From a virus: a stretch of DNA of 64,000 bases. The stretch covers positions 124,001 to 188,000 of the IMG/VR virus record IMGVR_UViG_3300046170_000378. One strand, given 5' to 3'. Under the pieces are notes generated by a model, which saw only the letters and a list, made by a program, of their open reading frames with translations, ran no database searches and was not told the origin of the DNA. Every line of letters starts with the position of its first letter. Position 1 is the first letter of the stretch. The translations under genes were made by a program, and so were the position numbers. Positions 1 to 10,262 of this stretch are shown piece after piece.

Positions 1-489
1 AACGGCCTAAGAGCTTATAGATTCCAATATGCTGCAGTTATTGCAGATGTATGTGACTGGTACCCAGAATTTATGAATAGAGAATCAATGTTCTATTATG
101 GTACTAATGCAGTAGAATGCATCGGTTATCTTGCAGATCCTGTAGAAAAGAAAGGTAAAAAGAGTGAAGAATTCTTAGATGCTGTTATGACAAAAATATA
201 CGAAGATACTGGGTCTTTACCGTATAACGCAGAAGATGTTGCTTGTGATTTTATTAGATGGATTGAAAATTATTTAAGGCCAGGCGCAGACTATGCGCAT
301 ATTAATATGGACACTCTTTGGAATTCTTCTGAAATTAAAGACCATCCATATGGCAGACAAAAAGCAATGCTAGATTTGGGGCTTGTAAAAACATTTAATG
401 GAATGACTTCATTTCCATCAGACGATAAAATATTACAAAGCGCTGGAGTATCAGTTGAAGAGTACAAAAAAATGGTAGCAAAAATATGA
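1..489 (+). CDS. Hypothetical protein, 5' end outside the window
   Basis: The reading frame is open from base 1, so the visible 162 residues are the C-terminal part of a longer protein. It is rich in aromatic and acidic residues, with no motif I can assign. Its stop overlaps the next start by four bases (ATGA), which suggests translational coupling to the transferase-like and PLP-enzyme genes downstream. It may therefore belong to the same DNA-base modification operon. That role is inferred only from position; the missing N-terminus could hold the diagnostic domain. Confidence 0.6.
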   Translation, partial: NGLRAYRFQYAAVIADVCDWYPEFMNRESMFYYGTNAVECIGYLADPVEKKGKKSEEFLDAVMTKIYEDTGSLPYNAEDVACDFIRWIENYLRPGADYAHINMDTLWNSSEIKDHPYGRQKAMLDLGLVKTFNGMTSFPSDDKILQSAGVSVEEYKKMVAKI

Positions 490-1592
490 GTAACACTATA
501 AAAGAAATAAAAAAAGTAGCTAAACAAACACCTGATCTGGGTGTTTTGTTTACGTTTGAAGACGATGTTACACAAGAGTATAGAAATATTACATATGATG
601 GTACTTCTACAAATGTTGCATTTAAAAAGAAAAAGCCAGCAGAAAGTTGGATGAAAGATTGGTCAGAAGAAATGAGGCTAGCAAAGTTCTTTGAATTTTG
701 TCACGAGTTTGATAAGAGAGAAGATAAACTTTTGTTAGAAGATTATCAGATATTTTCTCATAGACTACATTGGCACGAGCATCCTTATTGTTATATGATG
801 CAAAAAGAAACAGACTTAGAGAAGCTACTTTATTATACCATTGTTTTCTCTTTTTCAAATGAACATTGGGGTACAATAACTCGCTTAATTAATGAAGGTG
901 AAGAAAAGACTAGGGCACATTTTGTAGAAAACAGACATGCAAGAAATGATTTATTTCAGATCTATTATCCTAAAGGTACAATAGTTAAAGATTGGTTAAT
1001 TGAAGGACCTAAAAAAGCAGCTAAAGACATGGCTCATATTCTAGAAGATTTAGAAAGACCATATACAATGATGGAATTTGCTAAATTATTAGAAGCTTAT
1101 TTTAAAGAACATCAAGGATTTAGGTCACCATTATATCCATGTAAAAACACAGCAAGATATGTTGCAATGAGTAGACCAGATCTGGTTGACCCAGAATCTA
1201 TTTTATTTGGAGGAACTGGACACTTTGATGGCATGCAACAAATATTTGGAGGAGTTAATTTAAATGGAAAAGTAAAATACACGATTGACAAAGATGGTCA
1301 ATTTATTGCAGAAAACAAACACGCTGAAGAATGGCTAAGACAAATGGATGTACTCGTAAATCATCCAAATAATCCAATGGAAAGTCAAAAGTATTTAAAT
1401 GTAGAAGATAAAACATGTTTCTTCTATAAACACATTGCGATTAGTCATGGCATTAAGTCACCTACAAAGAGAATTCCATATACTTGGATATTCGATGGTA
1501 ACTTTAATTTAGCTAAACATCCAGATAAAGAAATTAATGTTAACGCAGACACTACTCGACATTTATGGGGTAGAGATTATCCAAACGAATAA
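486..1592 (+). CDS. Candidate DNA-base hypermodification protein (amino-acid:DNA transferase-like or 5-hmdU kinase helical-domain-like)
   Basis: A 368-residue protein without signal peptide or membrane segment. The central segment around residues 205-260 carries a run of conserved-looking glycines and aromatics (GFRSPLYPCKNTARY, then FGGTGHFDGMQQIFGG). This loosely resembles the helix-hairpin-helix-glycosylase-like families called aGPT-Pplase or amino-acid:DNA transferases, which load amino acids onto phosphorylated 5-hydroxymethyl-dU in phage DNA. The match is by eye and weak. The context is stronger: a PLP enzyme follows after three bases and a dUTPase follows that. It could instead be the helical partner of a 5-hmdU DNA kinase, or a family I do not know. 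Confidence 0.35.
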   Translation: MSNTIKEIKKVAKQTPDLGVLFTFEDDVTQEYRNITYDGTSTNVAFKKKKPAESWMKDWSEEMRLAKFFEFCHEFDKREDKLLLEDYQIFSHRLHWHEHPYCYMMQKETDLEKLLYYTIVFSFSNEHWGTITRLINEGEEKTRAHFVENRHARNDLFQIYYPKGTIVKDWLIEGPKKAAKDMAHILEDLERPYTMMEFAKLLEAYFKEHQGFRSPLYPCKNTARYVAMSRPDLVDPESILFGGTGHFDGMQQIFGGVNLNGKVKYTIDKDGQFIAENKHAEEWLRQMDVLVNHPNNPMESQKYLNVEDKTCFFYKHIAISHGIKSPTKRIPYTWIFDGNFNLAKHPDKEINVNADTTRHLWGRDYPNE

Positions 1593-1595
1593 AAT

Positions 1596-2492
1596 ATGGC
1601 ACACGATAAACACACGACAAGCACAATGAATCAAGATTTAAATCTAATGATGCCAAATAGACAGGCGTGGTTAGATTTGGCCGGTGATTGGCAAGATCCA
1701 CTGGATGATCCAGTTATTGTGAATCATGAAGGATTTAATGTAGTTAGAGATGATTTAATGGGATTTGGATCTAAATGTAGATTTGGTGATATTCTAGTTC
1801 AAAAGGCACCAACGGATACTTTAGTATACGTACAGCCCAGGTTTGGTTTTGCAGGAATATCTCTCGCATATTTAGCCAAAAAATATAATAAGAAACTGGT
1901 ATTATTCATGCCATCGGGCAAAGTAATATCAGATCATCAAGCAATATGTATTGAGAGAGGAGCAATACCTAAATTTAGAAGAATTGCAGCAATGCCTAAT
2001 TTAAATAGAATTGCAAAACAATGGGCAGAAGATAATAATGCAACATTTATTCCACTAGGACTTAAACATGAACTAGTAACTGCAGCCGCAGTAAAGGTTG
2101 CATATGATGTAGCAGAAAAACATGGTTATCCAGAAGAAGTGTGGTCAGCAATATCTACTGGCGTTTTATCTAGATCTTTACAAATTGCATGGCCAGATGC
2201 TGAATTTAATGCAGTCGCGGTTTCTAGAAATATACAGACAGGTGAATTAGGTAGAGCTAAAGTTTGGTCACATCCAAAGGCGTTTGCATCAGATGTTAAT
2301 CCAGAATTTGCACCTCCGTTTCCATCTGCAATGAACTACGATGCAAAGGCTTGGGAATTTATGGTTAAGCATGGAAATCAAGGAGCTTGGTTTTGGAACG
2401 TAGGTGGACAACCTTACCCAGAATCAGAGGAAACTAAAGAAAAAACAAATTCAAAAAGAGAATGGGGAGAAGTTTTAGAAATGGACAAATAA
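1596..2492 (+). CDS. Fold-type II PLP-dependent enzyme, probably for thymine hypermodification
   Basis: A 298-residue protein with the architecture of the ACC deaminase/threonine synthase (tryptophan synthase beta) fold. RDDLMGFGSKCRFGD at residues 51-65 matches the RDDL...GNK motif of ACC deaminase and D-cysteine desulfhydrase relatives, with K60 as the likely Schiff-base lysine. The next block (VYVQPRFGFAGISLAYLAKK) corresponds to the cofactor-phosphate/substrate loop, and STGVLSRSL near residue 185 to a later glycine/serine loop. Related PLP enzymes in some phages act on amino acids attached to hydroxymethyl-uracil in DNA. The three-base spacing to the upstream gene and the following dUTPase fit that role, but the exact substrate cannot be read from the sequence. 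Confidence 0.6.
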   Translation: MAHDKHTTSTMNQDLNLMMPNRQAWLDLAGDWQDPLDDPVIVNHEGFNVVRDDLMGFGSKCRFGDILVQKAPTDTLVYVQPRFGFAGISLAYLAKKYNKKLVLFMPSGKVISDHQAICIERGAIPKFRRIAAMPNLNRIAKQWAEDNNATFIPLGLKHELVTAAAVKVAYDVAEKHGYPEEVWSAISTGVLSRSLQIAWPDAEFNAVAVSRNIQTGELGRAKVWSHPKAFASDVNPEFAPPFPSAMNYDAKAWEFMVKHGNQGAWFWNVGGQPYPESEETKEKTNSKREWGEVLEMDK

Positions 2493-2542
2493 TACTGAAA
2501 CTATCTCACTAAAGATCATAGAATTAATATACACAAAAAAAT

Positions 2543-3007
2543 ATGGCAAACATAGACAACAAATGCGCAGATCTTGATATTCAAGATTATCACAAAGATA
2601 CTAAAGATACTTTTGGTTTACTCTTTGACAAGCAAAAAGAATTGCAATCTAGATTGGGCTTTGACTTTGAAGGTTGGAGCATTAAAGAGATTGCAGATTT
2701 CTGGATGGTAAACAAACATGCAATGAGCGATGAGCTTAATGAAATGTTTGATGCACTAGGTGGAATTAATGACGGTATTGGAAACGCAGGTTGGAAATAC
2801 TGGAAGAAGGACAATGTTAAGACTCCTGAAATGAAAATCGAAGATCTTAGCGAAGAAGATAAGCTAGAATTATTTTATGAGTGGATTGATGGTCTTCATT
2901 TTTATATGAACTTTGCAATTTCTATTGGTATGACAAGTAAAGATATAGTTAACTTGTACATGGCAAAGAATGCTGAGAATCACGATAGACAAGAGCGAGG
3001 ATATTAA
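2543..3007 (+). CDS. Dimeric (all-alpha) dUTPase/dCTPase, T4 gp56-like
   Basis: A 154-residue all-helical protein. The C-terminal half shows the dimeric dUTPase signature: acidic residues in the ELFYEWIDGLHF helix, then a helix ending KNAENHDRQERGY, matching the K-N-x-x-N-x-x-R-Q-x-x-GY motif of the MazG-like dUTPase family. It would hydrolyse dUTP (and perhaps dCTP) to the monophosphate. This lowers dUTP and feeds thymidylate or hydroxymethyl-dUMP synthesis. T4 gp56 is the functional parallel, and dUTP control fits the base-modification genes upstream. A 50-base A-rich leader precedes it with no Shine-Dalgarno. Confidence 0.72.
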   Translation: MANIDNKCADLDIQDYHKDTKDTFGLLFDKQKELQSRLGFDFEGWSIKEIADFWMVNKHAMSDELNEMFDALGGINDGIGNAGWKYWKKDNVKTPEMKIEDLSEEDKLELFYEWIDGLHFYMNFAISIGMTSKDIVNLYMAKNAENHDRQERGY

Positions 3008-3025
3008 TCAAACAACACACATAAT

Positions 3026-4442
3026 ATGTTACTAGACATAGAGCAAAAAGAAAACGAAGTTATTATTAGTTACTACGATAAGGAAGGTAAAGTTTCCTTT
3101 AAAAGATATTCTGTAAATAAATTTGAAAATTGGGTAGTTACTGAAGAAAAGGATCGTTGGAAAGATGTTAAGTTTAGGAACTGGGATAATAGACCTATTA
3201 AAAGATCTATCTCTAGAAGTTTTAATAAATTTAGCCTGCTCTATTTCATGGATTCATTGCCTGAAAAAGATCAAGAAGAAATCTTTGAATTTAATATGCC
3301 ACGTACATACTTTGTGGATATTGAAACTGAAATTGTAGATGGATTCCCAAAAGCAGAAGAAGCAAAAACTAGAATTCTATCGTTTTCTATTATTACACCC
3401 TGAGCGCAAAGCAATTGTTTTAGGTTTAGAAGACATGAGTTCTGATCAGATCAAGAAAATTGAAGAAGATACCAATAAACACTTCAAAGATTATGATCAA
3501 GACTGGGAATTTAGTTATTACAAGTTTGACGACGAGTATAACATGGTTTATAGTTTCTTACATAAGTTTTTACCTAAGTTCCCAATGATGACTGGTTGGA
3601 ACTTCATTAACTATGACTGGCAGTATATAGTAAACAGATGTAAGAGATTACAAATCGACCTGACTGATGTGGCTATCACTGGATCACTAGATCGAAATGA
3701 TAGTAGACCATTGCACATGGGTATTCTAGATTACATGCAATTATATGATAAATATGATAGATCAGTTGCAGTAAAAGAATCTAATTCTTTAGATTTTGTA
3801 TCGAGCTCAGTATTAGATGTTGCAAAAATCAAATACACTGGTGGATTACAAGAACTTTATGAAGATAATTTTCAAAAGTACATTTACTATAACGTAGTCG
3901 ATTCTTGTCTGGTATATTACATAGATCAACAACTTAGATCCATGGAAGTACTATTGACATTGGCAACTATCACAAGAATGCCGCTTTATAAAGCAGCATC
4001 TCCAGTGGCAGTAACTGAAGCACTTATAGCTAGAAAGCTAATAGGTCAGAATAAAAAAATTGGAATGGAATGGAATAAAGAAGATGCTAAAAAAGATGGC
4101 AAATTCGAAGGAGCATTTGTTAAACAGCCTATTGTAGGCTATTACTCTGGAGTTTCTGCGTTTGACTTTGCATCTCTGTATCCATCAATCATGCGTCAAT
4201 TTAATATATCTCCGGATGCATTTATTGAACAAGTGAATGAAATGGAAATTCCAGAAAGAAGAAAAGACAAAGATGTCATTGTCTGCGAAAACGGTGTTGT
4301 ATATAAGAAAGAAGATAGTATTCTTAAAAAGATACTAGCAGATTTATATGGTCAAAGAAAGGACTATAAAAGAACTTCTTACGAGTATTATGAAAAAGCC
4401 CATGAACTAGAAAAAAAATTAAAGAAAAAAATTAAGGTCTAA
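3026..4442 (+). CDS. 43A: DNA polymerase B family, N-terminal half (exonuclease and first palm segment), one frameshift
   Basis: This is the first half of a T4 gp43-type polymerase, about 472 residues once one frameshift at the CCC run 3398-3400 is repaired by removing a C. The exonuclease motifs are visible: YFVDIETE (Exo I), TGWNFINYDWQYI (Exo II) and YNVVDSCLVYYID (Exo III). Palm motif A is FDFASLYPSIMRQFNISP. The protein ends in a basic helix soon after QRKDYK, at the tip of the fingers. All three forward frames close within a few bases of 4442, so this end is real and not an indel effect. The fingers return helix, motif B and motif C are encoded 4.6 kb away at 9054-10262. No intein sequence is present. 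Confidence 0.88.
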
Positions 4443-5618: not shown

Positions 5619-7456
5619 ATGAGTAAAGAAAATAAAGTAAACTATGGAGCTTCATTAGGTTGGGAGCTAGGTGTTGATTTCCCAACATGGGGAAACACAG
5701 AGATATACGTTAAGACAATAAGCAAAGGATATTGTTACCAAGATGAAACGCCAAAAGGATGCATATTGGAGAGTTGCAACTACAATTGCTAAAAGATTAG
5801 GTAAACCTGAACTTGCATCGAAATTTTTTGATTATATATGGAAAGGTTGGTTGAATCTAGCCTCACCGGTTCTTTCAAACACTGGGCTAGAAAGAGGACT
5901 TCCTATTTCATGTTTTGGTATTGATGTCGCTGATTCTATTCATGACATTGGAGCTAAAAACTTAGAAATGATGTTACTCGCTAAGCATGGTGGAGGTGTT
6001 GGACTAGGTATTAATCAAATTAGACCAGCGGGTGCAAAAATCACAGGTAATGGAACAAGCGACGGAGTCGTACCGTTCTGTAAAATATATGACTCTACAA
6101 TCCTTGCTACTAACCAAGGGTCTGTCAGACGTGGAGCTGCGTCAGTTAATATTGATATTGAACATGATGATTTCTGGGAATGGCTAGAAATTAGAGAACC
6201 TAAAGGTGATGTAAATAGACAATCTTTAAATCTACATCAATGTGCTGTTGTTCCAGATGGTTTTATGCAAAAAGTAGAAGCAGGTGATAAGGAATCTCGT
6301 AAAAGATGGGCTGCACTTTTAAGAAAGCGTAGATCTACAGGAGAACCATATATCATGTATAAAGGAAATGTAAATAGAGCTAATCCAGAAGCATATCACA
6401 AAAATGGATTAAAAGTTTATATGACCAATATTTGTTCTGAAATTACATTACACACAGATGAATCGCATTCATTTCGTATGTTGTTTATCATCTGTAAACC
6501 TTGGCAAAATACAACGAATGGAAAGATACTGATCTTATTTACACCGCGACTTGGTTTTTAGATGGTGTTATGGAAGAATTTATCCAAAAGGCTAAATTTA
6601 TGAGAGGTTTTGAAAACTCAATTAGATCAGCTGAAAAAGGAAGAGCATTAGGACTTGGTGTATTAGGATGGCATACATATCTACAAGAAAAAAATATTCC
6701 ATTTGATTCTCTATCTGCTCAATTTGAAACACGTAAAATATTTTCACAATTAAAGATAGAATCTGAAAGAGCATCTAGAGATTTAGCTACAGAATATGGT
6801 GAACCACTTTGGTGCGTAGGGACTGGAATGAGAAACACACACCTAAGAGCTATTGCTCCTACAGTAACTAATTCAAAACTTAGTGGAAATGTTTCACCTG
6901 GTATTGAGCCATGGGCAGCAAATCTATTAACAGAACAAACAGCTAAAGGGCACTTTCATCAGAAAAAACCCAACATTAGAAAAGGTTTTAGAAACTATCG
7001 GTAAAAATACTAAAACAACATGGGACAAGATATTAGAAGATGGTGGTTCGGTTTTAGGTTTACCATGGATTGAAGATTATTTTGTTTCCTTCGTTTTCAG
7101 ATAACGATGGAACTGCAGGTATTCAAAAACCATTGACTCAAAAACAATTGGAAAAATTACCAACGTTAGAGCAGGCCGATTATATTCCCATGAAAGATGT
7201 ATTTAGAACATTTAAGGAAATTAATCAATTAGATCTAGTAAGACAAGCGGGTATTAGACAACAATATGTTGATCAAGCTGCAAGTTTAAATCTAGCTTTC
7301 CCAAAAGAAGCTGAACCCAAATTCATAAATCAAGTACACTTAGAAGCATACAGAAAGGGCGTAAAAACACTTTACTATATGAGAACTGAAAGTGTACTTA
7401 GAGGAGATATTGCTGCATCTGCTACAGATCCCGACTGTGCAGCGTGTGACGGATAA
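5619..7456 (+). CDS. nrdA: Ribonucleotide reductase large (alpha) subunit, five frameshifts
   Basis: After repair this is about 610 residues, shorter than cellular NrdA (about 750) because the N-terminal ATP cone is absent; overall activity regulation is probably lost. Catalytic features remain: the redox cysteine in PISCFG, NICSE (Asn/Cys/Glu), CCLSSVNLAKY, the tyrosine pair in TLYYMRTESV and a C-terminal CAAC. The frame is broken at AAAA 5753-5756, TTT 6472-6474, CC 6499-6500, GGG 6958-6960 and TTTT 7080-7083. Each break is corrected by deleting one base, and the protein between them is conserved. Five identical-type breaks in one gene argue for consensus error. The start at 5619 follows the nrdB stop closely. 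Confidence 0.88.
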
Positions 7457-7772: not shown

Positions 7773-8189
7773 ATGAAAAATTTTATTTTAACATTAGCCC
7801 TTGTGGCATTGACAACATTCGGTGCAAATGCACAGAATGCAAAAGGTGACTGGTACGTAGGTACTGGCGATATTACTAACACGGCTTGGACTGAATTATC
7901 AATCCAACCAACAATCGGTTATGCATTTGCAGATAACTACATGGTGGGAATGAGCCTTTCACAGGCAGATTCAACTGAAGACATGTCTTTAGGCCTAGAA
8001 GGAAGATATTTCCACAAAGGGTTTTTTGGATATGTAGGACTTAATGATTTTGATTTCGATCAACTTCAATTAGGCGTAGGTAAAATGTTCGCATTCCATA
8101 AAGGATCTATGTTTGTAGATCCAAAAATCGTTTACGATTTAGGAACTGAGACAACTAACCTTCAAATCGGCTTTGGTTTAAAGTTCTAA
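7773..8189 (+). CDS. Small outer-membrane beta-barrel protein with signal peptide
   Basis: A 138-residue protein. Residues 1-20 are a classic Sec signal peptide (MKNFILTLALVALTTFGANA, cleavage expected before QNAKGD). The mature part alternates polar and hydrophobic residues in about eight short strands and ends in an aromatic residue (GFGLKF), the usual outer-membrane insertion signal. It resembles Bacteroidetes porin-family or OmpW/opacity-type barrels, not a virion protein. It is a single-gene unit with its own promoter and terminator, placed between replication genes. A role at the infected-cell surface, such as superinfection exclusion, receptor masking or envelope maintenance, is inference. 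It was possibly acquired from a host. Confidence 0.8.
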   Translation: MKNFILTLALVALTTFGANAQNAKGDWYVGTGDITNTAWTELSIQPTIGYAFADNYMVGMSLSQADSTEDMSLGLEGRYFHKGFFGYVGLNDFDFDQLQLGVGKMFAFHKGSMFVDPKIVYDLGTETTNLQIGFGLKF

Positions 8190-8306: not shown

Positions 8307-9051
8307 ATGAAACTTAAATTAGATCGTATTGACCAGCATGCTTTGACAGCATTCATCAACAGAGTAAAACCGATTGATTCTTTCATTTACATGAAAATTG
8401 CAGATGGAACAATTAATTCAACAGTTTATCTTCCACAAAGAGATGCAGTAAAACATCACTCAGTAGAAGTAAGTACTATTTTTCAAGTAGAAGAATGGCC
8501 AGAAAACTGACAAAGAAATGAAAATTGCATTCTTTGAAGGTAACAAAGTAATCGAAGCTATTAAGCACTTTGATGCAGATGCAATTAAAGGTGAAATTGA
8601 ATTCATCGAAAACGACAATGAATTAGTAGCATCTTCGCTACGTATTTTCAATGATGAGCTAGAAATTACTTTAGCTTGTTCAGAGCCTTCACTTGGCTTT
8701 AAAGATCTTACACAAGATCAGATTGATGCAATCTTTGCAAGAGAAGATAGTAAATTTGACTTTAGCTTTGACACTCACATGATAGGTAAAGTTAAAAATC
8801 TATTTTCACTAGATAAAGATGAAACATTTAGCATTAAATCTGATGTATCAGGTGTAAGCGTAAGTGGTAAATCATTTAGCGTTGTAATCAATCCAGATAC
8901 AAGCGGAAATGGTGAAGTAACAGTTTATAAAAAGTACTTAAGCTTACTTGACAAAGACGAACAAACAGTATATGTTTCAGGATCAAAGGTTGTTTTTAAC
9001 TCCAATGACACAAATACATTACTAACTGTTTCAACTTGTCAAACAGCATAA
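8307..9051 (+). CDS. 45: Sliding clamp, T4 gp45-like, one frameshift
   Basis: Two adjoining segments (67 and 177 residues) join into one clamp of about 247 residues (T4 gp45 has 228) when one A is removed from the AAAA run 8503-8506, giving EEWPETDKEMKIAFFEG. The alternating beta-strand/helix pattern (KIAFFEGNKVIEAIKHF, then the VSGKSFSVVINPD and TVYVSGSKVVFNSNDTNTLL strands) fits the gp45/PCNA fold. It would tether the polymerase and, as in T4, act as mobile activator of late transcription with gp33 and gp55. The C-terminal polymerase gene starts two bases after its stop, so the two are translationally linked. Confidence 0.78.
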
Positions 9052-9053
9052 GT

Positions 9054-10262
9054 ATGAACATCGAAGCGCTAGAAAATAAATCTATCGAGGAATTGACTGA
9101 TAATGAGGCGAAGCTGCTTGTAGATCACTACAAGCAGCTTTCAGCCAAATATACAGCATATGAACAAGCAGTTAAGTTAACACTAAACTCGATCTACGGA
9201 GCCTTCGGTAATAAGTGGTTCCACTTTTTTAATATTGACATTGCCGAGTCAATTACAAAACAAGGCAAAAATGCAATTCTCTACTCAGAAACAATTCTTA
9301 ATAAATATGTTAATGAGTTTTGGCACAAAGACACAGCAGTCCACGCACATTTCGGTATCAAAGTAAAGGGTAAAATTGAAAAACCTGCAGTAATTTATAT
9401 TGATACAGATTCATGTTACGTACAGTTTCAGGATTTGTATGAATCAATAATTTGGCCAGAAGAAACCGAGAAGATGGAAATTGATGTGTTTATTTTAGCA
9501 CTTTATGGATTTAGGCTTAAAGATTATATAGCTAAATGTATGGAGAAGTATGCAGAAAAAAGAAACACAGATAATTATTTAATATTCGAACTAGAGGCGC
9601 TCGCGTACAATGGTATTTGGATGTCCAAGAAAAAGTATATTCAAAACATAGCATGGGACGATAAGTTAGAAATTACAGATCGTCACAAATCATTGAAGAA
9701 AATTAAGACAATTGGATTTGATACGATTCAATCTTCAACGCCCAAATTTGTTAGAGAAAAACTAGTAGAAGCACTTAAAATTATCTTTAAAAGTAGAGTA
9801 ACTCCAACTGCAGAAGATCTACAAGCATTGGTTGTTTTTATGAAAGAAACCAAGAAACAATTCAAACTGGCAGATATTGATGAGATTTCATTTAATAGAA
9901 GAACCAACAATATCGATAAGTATATTGTAGATGATCAGACAGAATTTCAGATAGGACTAAAATGTCCAGCCAATGTTAAAGCCGCAGGATATTATAACTA
10001 TCTACTAAATAACAATAAAAAGTATAAAAACAAATATAAGGTTATTGGTAACGGTGAAAAGCTAAAGATTTATAACTGTAAATCACCAATATCAGAGGTT
10101 TATGCATATATGCCAAATGAACACCCTTATGAAATTGCTCCAGAAATTGATTACGACACTCAATTTGAAAAAGCAATGATTGATCCTCTTAATAGAGTAT
10201 TGACAGCAATTGGTCTACAAACACTAGACACTAATCTAATTTACGCATCGTCGTTATTTTAA
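9054..10262 (+). CDS. 43B: DNA polymerase B family, C-terminal half (fingers, motifs B and C, thumb)
   Basis: About 402 residues completing the T4 gp43-type polymerase begun at 3026. The start is taken as ATG 9054, two bases after the clamp stop; an upstream TTG in frame is less likely. After a short acidic lead the fingers helix and motif B (KLTLNSIYGAFGN) appear, then motif C with the catalytic aspartates in YIDTDSCYVQF, then the WMSKKKYIQN block and thumb. The final IYASSLF resembles the clamp-binding tail of T4 polymerase (LDFLFG). Together the halves total about 875 residues against 898 in T4, with no core motif missing. They presumably assemble as a heterodimer. Confidence 0.9.
   Translation: MNIEALENKSIEELTDNEAKLLVDHYKQLSAKYTAYEQAVKLTLNSIYGAFGNKWFHFFNIDIAESITKQGKNAILYSETILNKYVNEFWHKDTAVHAHFGIKVKGKIEKPAVIYIDTDSCYVQFQDLYESIIWPEETEKMEIDVFILALYGFRLKDYIAKCMEKYAEKRNTDNYLIFELEALAYNGIWMSKKKYIQNIAWDDKLEITDRHKSLKKIKTIGFDTIQSSTPKFVREKLVEALKIIFKSRVTPTAEDLQALVVFMKETKKQFKLADIDEISFNRRTNNIDKYIVDDQTEFQIGLKCPANVKAAGYYNYLLNNNKKYKNKYKVIGNGEKLKIYNCKSPISEVYAYMPNEHPYEIAPEIDYDTQFEKAMIDPLNRVLTAIGLQTLDTNLIYASSLF

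Follow-up and report, generated by a model that had tools for sequence, protein, structure and literature searches.

The window is a 64,000-nucleotide stretch (G000:124001-188000) of the virus record IMGVR_UViG_3300046170_000378, here called G000, which is 212,342 bp long and whose gene content points to a probable origin in a flavobacterial T4-like phage. At the window's left edge the ORF coordinates reproduced the tightly packed four-gene layout described in the first-pass annotation, with a 4-base overlap followed by a 3-base gap. The genes at this edge, the two upstream of it and two thymidylate-synthase-family genes elsewhere in the record are as follows.

Gene A, 3' end: window 1..489, + strand; the full ORF of 402 aa (G000:123281-124489) crosses the left edge.
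Gene B: window 486..1592, + strand; 368 aa, sharing 4 bases (ATGA) with gene A.
Gene C: window 1596..2492, + strand; 298 aa, 3 bases after gene B; a predicted PLP (PALP-like) enzyme of fold-type II.
Gene D: window 2543..3007, + strand; 154 aa, 50 bases after gene C; an all-alpha NTP pyrophosphatase, T4 gp56-type dCTPase/dUTPase.
Gene U: G000:122067-123128, outside the window and directly upstream of gene A; 353 aa, with a beta-glucosyltransferase-like N-domain and an SGNH/GDSH-like C-domain.
DUF6378 gene: G000:121755-122063, outside the window, upstream; Pfam E 7e-12.
Thymidylate synthase, ordinary Asn-type: G000:8679-9608; PF00303 E 4e-95, nearest annotated relative a Flavobacterium phage thymidylate synthase.
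Hydroxymethylase, Asp-type (dCMP-type): G000:12891-13746; split by a frameshift in the window genome.

A 5-hmdU kinase and a dUMP hydroxymethylase had been expected just upstream of the window; both are absent there and their place is occupied by U and the DUF6378 gene.

The module is widespread in phages: searches of viral contigs returned more than 100 relatives each of A, B and C. Co-occurrence was counted over 109 A-bearing loci with at least 3 kb on either side, some contigs contributing more than one locus, and U was present at all 109, C at 108, D at 102 and B at 73, so that B is kept in about two thirds of the modules and missing from 36. Such an arrangement far exceeds what chance would give. 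Among divergent relatives the order varies (A-B-C-U, A-C-B-U, A-B-U-C, C-A-U) and the gene set stays together, recurring at 30-60% identity in varied orders and surroundings (L067, L138, L142, L246-L249). We regard as very unlikely the view that the four genes A, B, C and U have nothing to do with one another, lie in a counter-defence hot-spot and co-occur through shared descent without forming a pathway. Many of the loci are indeed close relatives and B is dispensable, but the recurrence of the set at such low identity in other orders and surroundings speaks against this reading, as does the exchange of U-partner sets as units, described below. Among bacterial-genome contigs gene A turned up in just four, all of them from MAGs, and it is therefore regarded as a phage gene. 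Neither A nor B had a match among the 50,697 phage isolate records.

A and B had no match in Pfam, PHROG, NCBIfam or PDB sequences. The profiles PF18724 (ADDT) and PF18723 (HMUDK_hel) found nothing in the window's genome at E ≤ 10 and nothing among the A/B relatives, so that gene B, which the first-pass annotation had proposed to compare with the aGPT-Pplase and HMUDK helical models, did not match them, and gene A likewise did not. The same annotation had suggested a new sub-type from the large divergence of the second gene; a new sub-type with divergent transferase-like proteins is very probable. The two proteins are distant paralogues of each other (hhalign of the C-terminal halves, P 1.9e-5; 0 of 30 shuffles as good). 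In profile-profile comparisons A and B aligned with the M6 aGPT-Pplase family, even as trimmed halves, or with a protein termed X that accompanies U in other phages, no better than shuffles did; X itself, unlike A and B, gave a positive comparison with the aGPT-Pplase profile. Assignment of A and B by profile to the aGPT-Pplase, ADDT or HMUDK_hel families was not supported, with PF18724, PF18723 and the aGPT-Pplase alignment all negative.

The structural model of gene A (pLDDT 82) is predicted to be all-helical. Against BFVD it matched A0A6J5L8T5, a 57%-identical protein whose label, 'amino acid:DNA transferase', was assigned automatically (E 6e-37), as well as A0A6J5LCY1, which bears the same name (E 0.016). 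The SP10 5-hmdU DNA kinase was matched more weakly, over its helical part (E 0.11, prob 0.97), and the sensible matches in the PDB were 8-oxoguanine DNA glycosylases, weak and amid many chance matches. An E318-x3-C322-x-F motif is invariant in A and has a counterpart in B (E307-x3-C311). This Glu-x3-Cys pair near the C-terminus is present in 54/54 A, 38/38 B and 42/42 X proteins, and at the same pair the M6 aGPT-Pplase family has Cys in 20/20 and Glu in 15/20 members. Because of the fold matches and the Glu-x3-Cys pair, and despite the negative profiles, A and B are candidates for enzymes of the aGPT-Pplase/ADDT kind, and A is predicted from its model to be an HhH-glycosylase/amino-acid:DNA-transferase-like protein.

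In gene C the RDDL...GSK lysine motif seen in the first reading was confirmed at residues 51-60 (RDDLMGFGSK). R51, D53, G58 and the Schiff-base Lys60 are invariant, and the STG loop is kept, in 54/54 relatives. The match of gene C to Pfam PALP (PF00291) was weak (E 1.5e-4, 21.6 bits against a curated cut-off of 35), its phage homologues exceeded that cut-off, and PHROG 7093 'threonine dehydratase' was matched at 4e-39. In Erythrobacter phage R6L a gene C homologue joins its PLP domain to a DNA methylase in one protein, which supports a role for gene C in DNA modification. Gene D had been called a dimeric dUTPase; it does belong to that family (dUTPase_2, Pfam E 1.4e-8), and its nearest annotated relatives are instead T4-type gp56 dCTPase/dUTPases, with identities of up to 42% to the best tblastn matches, dCTP pyrophosphatase or T2 gene 56. 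Both D and the DUF6378 protein are nucleotide-type enzymes.

The likely target base was approached through the hydroxymethylases, scored at the residue that sets specificity (Asn177 of E. coli thymidylate synthase, Asp179 of T4 gp42). Substitution of Asn177 by Asp changes specificity from dUMP to dCMP (PMC8670742). The aligned controls had Asn in SPO1 gp29 (a dUMP hydroxymethylase) and in the M6 enzyme, and Asp in T4 gp42. Module-linked hydroxymethylases in the local loci carried Asp in 25 cases and Asn in 1, and an Asp-type enzyme was present in 10 of the 11 module-bearing whole records with any thymidylate-synthase-family protein, the window's record being one of the 10; 12 of 23 module records, possibly fragments, had no gene of this family. 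At least three divergent groups can be told apart among the module-linked Asp-type enzymes, and T4 gp42-like hydroxymethylases lie directly upstream of many divergent modules, often together with a dCMP deaminase. Homologues of the frameshifted hydroxymethylase of the window genome are intact in G006, G010 and G011. The Asp-type hydroxymethylases, the ordinary Asn-type synthase and the absence of HMUDK_hel together favour 5hmC over thymidine, and the modified base is probably cytosine (as 5hmC), judging from these sequences.

We consider unlikely a thymidine route in which dUMP would give 5-hmU and, after its activation, A/B would attach an amino acid for C to process. The company of a PLP enzyme and an amino-acid:DNA-transferase-like fold does recall 5-hmU loci, a gene of the dimeric dUTPase family adjoins, and the record holds a thymidylate-synthase homologue (G000:8679-9608); but this synthase is of the ordinary Asn type, and the hydroxymethylases adjoining the modules are of the dCMP type. 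No HMUDK_hel (PF18723) kinase was found in the window genome by a search that recovered the M6 positive control, and none scored above cut-off in 19 related records. The thymidylate-synthase-family proteins of the module records were either ordinary Asn-type thymidylate synthases or of the Asp type, with no SPO1/M6-type dUMP hydroxymethylase in any of them. The first-pass proposal of a thymidine hypermodification locus is therefore supported as to hypermodification, by the predicted transferase-like fold of A and by the PLP enzyme, and not supported as to thymidine, given the Asp-type hydroxymethylases and the lack of a 5-hmU kinase. Modification of a DNA base is likely from the fold matches of A combined with its linkage to the module.

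The N-domain of U aligned with the N-domain of T4 beta-glucosyltransferase (hhalign P 2.7e-6, score 44.8; shuffled maximum 20, with 0 of 30 shuffles reaching the observed score). At the position aligned with T4 Asp100, the catalytic base of beta-glucosyltransferase, most U proteins have Asp or Glu, with Asp mostly conserved. In the C-domain the GDSH and GNID-type motifs are invariant and are accompanied by a late His, as in SGNH hydrolases; the C-half did not rise above shuffles when compared with the UDP-glucose domain of beta-glucosyltransferase, and U had no match among PDB sequences. The phage isolate records containing U numbered 43, most of them T4-like phages of Aeromonas. Alongside U, each of 44RR2.8t, 25 and IME13 encodes a thymidylate synthase of the Asn type and a hydroxymethylase of the Asp type. 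Genes 42 and 56 are present in phages 44RR, 31 and 25, which lack glucosyltransferases and whose protective modification is reported as not known (PMC2993671).

The neighbours of U differ between phages. The U protein of 44RR2.8t continues into a C-terminal X domain with a weak HMUDK_hel-like match (E 0.0036), free-standing X matching HMUDK_hel above cut-off (2e-8); besides X, a sodium:solute symporter gene accompanies U in 44RR. Its neighbours in 25 and IME13 are a UDP-galactopyranose mutase and another protein. Relatives with a DUF6378-U-...-D backbone have the A-B-C slot replaced by a myo-inositol-1-phosphate synthase (PF01658, E 1e-22) and other genes, namely those for X, for an FkbM-type methyltransferase and for a small protein that we read as HAD-like and that matched nothing in Pfam. 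An inositol-phosphate synthase was absent from 44RR, 25, PTm1, IME13 and the window genome in a search run without a positive control, and a literature search on inositol-modified phage DNA found nothing relevant. Since partner sets swap around it, U seems to be the element shared by several 5hmC decoration systems, with A-B-C as one of the exchangeable sets. Tentatively, this may extend to a modular 5hmC-decoration slot in which U is combined with A-B-C (amino-acid type), INO1-X (inositol) or UDP-Galf mutase plus another protein (galactofuranose), a possibility that we put somewhat short of even odds.

Our preferred reading, held at a probability of roughly 0.6, is that the U-A-(B)-C-D locus is a post-replicative 5hmC hypermodification cassette of amino-acid type. 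In its favour are the U-A-C linkage, the adjoining dCMP hydroxymethylase and deaminase genes of divergent modules, the Asp at the specificity position, the gp56-like D, the relation of the U N-domain to beta-GT, the occurrence of U in phages with an Asp-type hydroxymethylase, its fusion in 44RR, the fold matches of A and the Glu-x3-Cys pair. Counting against it are the lack of family-model and aGPT-Pplase profile matches for A and B, the automatic origin of the transferase label, the weakness of the PDB fold matches, the frameshift in the hydroxymethylase of this record and the 12 module records with no thymidylate-synthase-family gene. D would remove dCTP and the hydroxymethylase would make hm-dCMP, so that 5hmC enters the phage DNA. 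The beta-GT-like domain of U would grip the flipped 5hmC and its SGNH-like domain would activate or first derivatise the hydroxymethyl oxygen. A, with B where present, would then act as an HhH-glycosylase-like base-flipping transferase adding an amino-acid-type adduct, with C making or trimming the transferred amino acid, and the decorated 5hmC would be protected from host nucleases. The amino-acid-type group is a candidate adduct. The role given to U is a guess because no kinase or other activating enzyme was recognised, and the activating chemistry is for the same reason the weakest link of the mechanism.

C, D and A/B could instead work on free nucleotides or metabolites, in pre-replicative modification of hm-dCTP or in host amino-acid metabolism, and not on DNA. 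A 5hmC carbamoyltransferase is also active on 5hmdCTP (PMC8670742), so pre-replicative decoration has a precedent, and the nucleotide-type nature of D and DUF6378 would suit such a role. We nevertheless find it improbable, as A resembles HhH DNA-glycosylase/HMUDK_hel folds, U opens with the N-domain of a DNA glucosyltransferase and an enzyme of the C family is elsewhere fused to a DNA methylase.

Read as a post-replicative 5hmC cassette, the locus shares features with several known systems. The aGPT-Pplase, ADDT and HMUDK_hel enzymes of 5-hmU phages (M6, phiW-14, SP10) are alike in the predicted helical fold of A, the E-x3-C-x-F near the C-terminus and the company of a PLP enzyme; unlike those phages, the module has no 5-hmU kinase, its hydroxymethylase is dCMP- and not dUMP-type, and A and B have no profile match. 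With the T4 5hmC pathway (gp42, gp56, alpha/beta-glucosyltransferases) it has in common an Asp-type hydroxymethylase, the gp56-like D and the homology of the U N-domain to beta-GT, whereas U has an SGNH-like domain in place of the C-terminal UDP-glucose domain of beta-GT, and T4 has nothing corresponding to A, B or C. The U loci of Aeromonas phages 44RR2.8t and 25 resemble it in the U homologue and the Asp-type hydroxymethylase, with U of 44RR fused to the HMUDK_hel-like domain, and differ, as does that of IME13, in having partners other than A-B-C. The 5-carbamoyloxymethyl-C system (PMC8670742) and the 5-carboxymethyl-C-glycine system with CmoX/CmoY (PMC12783734) likewise place an added decoration on a C5-substituted phage cytosine, the former also with linkage to an Asp-type hydroxymethylase; their transferase families differ, and A, B, C and U match none of them.

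If the preferred reading is true, the pairing of amino-acid:DNA-transferase-like proteins and a PLP enzyme with 5hmC would carry hypermodification chemistry over to cytosine. As far as we know, phage 5hmC is decorated with glucosyl, gentiobiosyl, arabinosyl or carbamoyl groups, and amino-acid and polyamine adducts are confined to 5hmU. An amino-acid-type decoration of phage hydroxymethylcytosine would thus be a DNA disguise with no earlier description, and the modular slot, if real, would imply several never-seen DNA bases, amino-acid-linked 5hmC among them. U ties the cassette to the cultured Aeromonas phages 44RR2.8t and 25, so that what guards their DNA becomes testable by LC-MS, and DNA modifications of this kind matter for defence by restriction, CRISPR and base excision.

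The position held by the predicted transferase-like paralogues A and B and the PLP enzyme C, in the backbone that runs from DUF6378 and U (T4 beta-glucosyltransferase-like and SGNH-like domains) to the dCTPase/dUTPase D, had an alternative occupant:

L286:2984-7170 (also L297, L276, L322, L271, L323), myo-inositol-1-phosphate synthase cassette

Besides the synthase (PF01658), this cassette comprised a small HAD-like protein, a methyltransferase of the FkbM type and X, an HMUDK_hel protein. Its gene content suggests an inositol-type decoration of 5-hydroxymethylcytosine (5hmC). U was also present in cultured phages:

L263:4375-8355, U fused to an HMUDK_hel-like domain, Aeromonas phage 44RR2.8t
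L264:3776-7047, UDP-galactopyranose mutase, an unassigned protein and U encoded next to one another, Aeromonas phage 25
L370:1764-5541, the same arrangement, Stenotrophomonas phage IME13

The mutase loci of phages 25 and IME13 may encode a galactofuranosyl-5hmC system. In 44RR2.8t a sodium:solute symporter gene immediately precedes the fusion.

Three frames of the contig G000 were broken by frameshifts:

G000:12891-13746 (outside the window), hydroxymethylase
window 3026-4442, DNA polymerase N-part
window 5743-7004, NrdA

All three were unbroken in relatives (the separate polymerase N-part in L169, for example), and G000 therefore likely contains assembly errors at these genes. DNA polymerase is apparently encoded by two separate genes (window 3026-4442 and 9036-10262) that flank ribonucleotide reductase genes. 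The window also carries a gene type uncommon for a phage, whose product has a signal peptide of flavobacterial appearance:

window 7773-8189, small beta-barrel protein of the outer membrane, OmpW-like

Further PLP enzymes were located as follows:

G000:7774-10327 (outside the window), three consecutive genes encoding a cysteine-synthase-like PLP enzyme, thymidylate synthase and a LOG-family (Lysine_decarbox) protein
L209:10894-13314, C-like PLP domain fused to an N6/N4-type DNA methylase, Erythrobacter phage R6L
L210:11114-12702, C-like PLP domain adjoining such a methylase, Microcystis phage Mae-JY30

Some modules have a LOG gene inserted between B and C (e.g., L169:9327-9998). The R6L and Mae-JY30 loci would represent a further PLP-linked DNA modification system.
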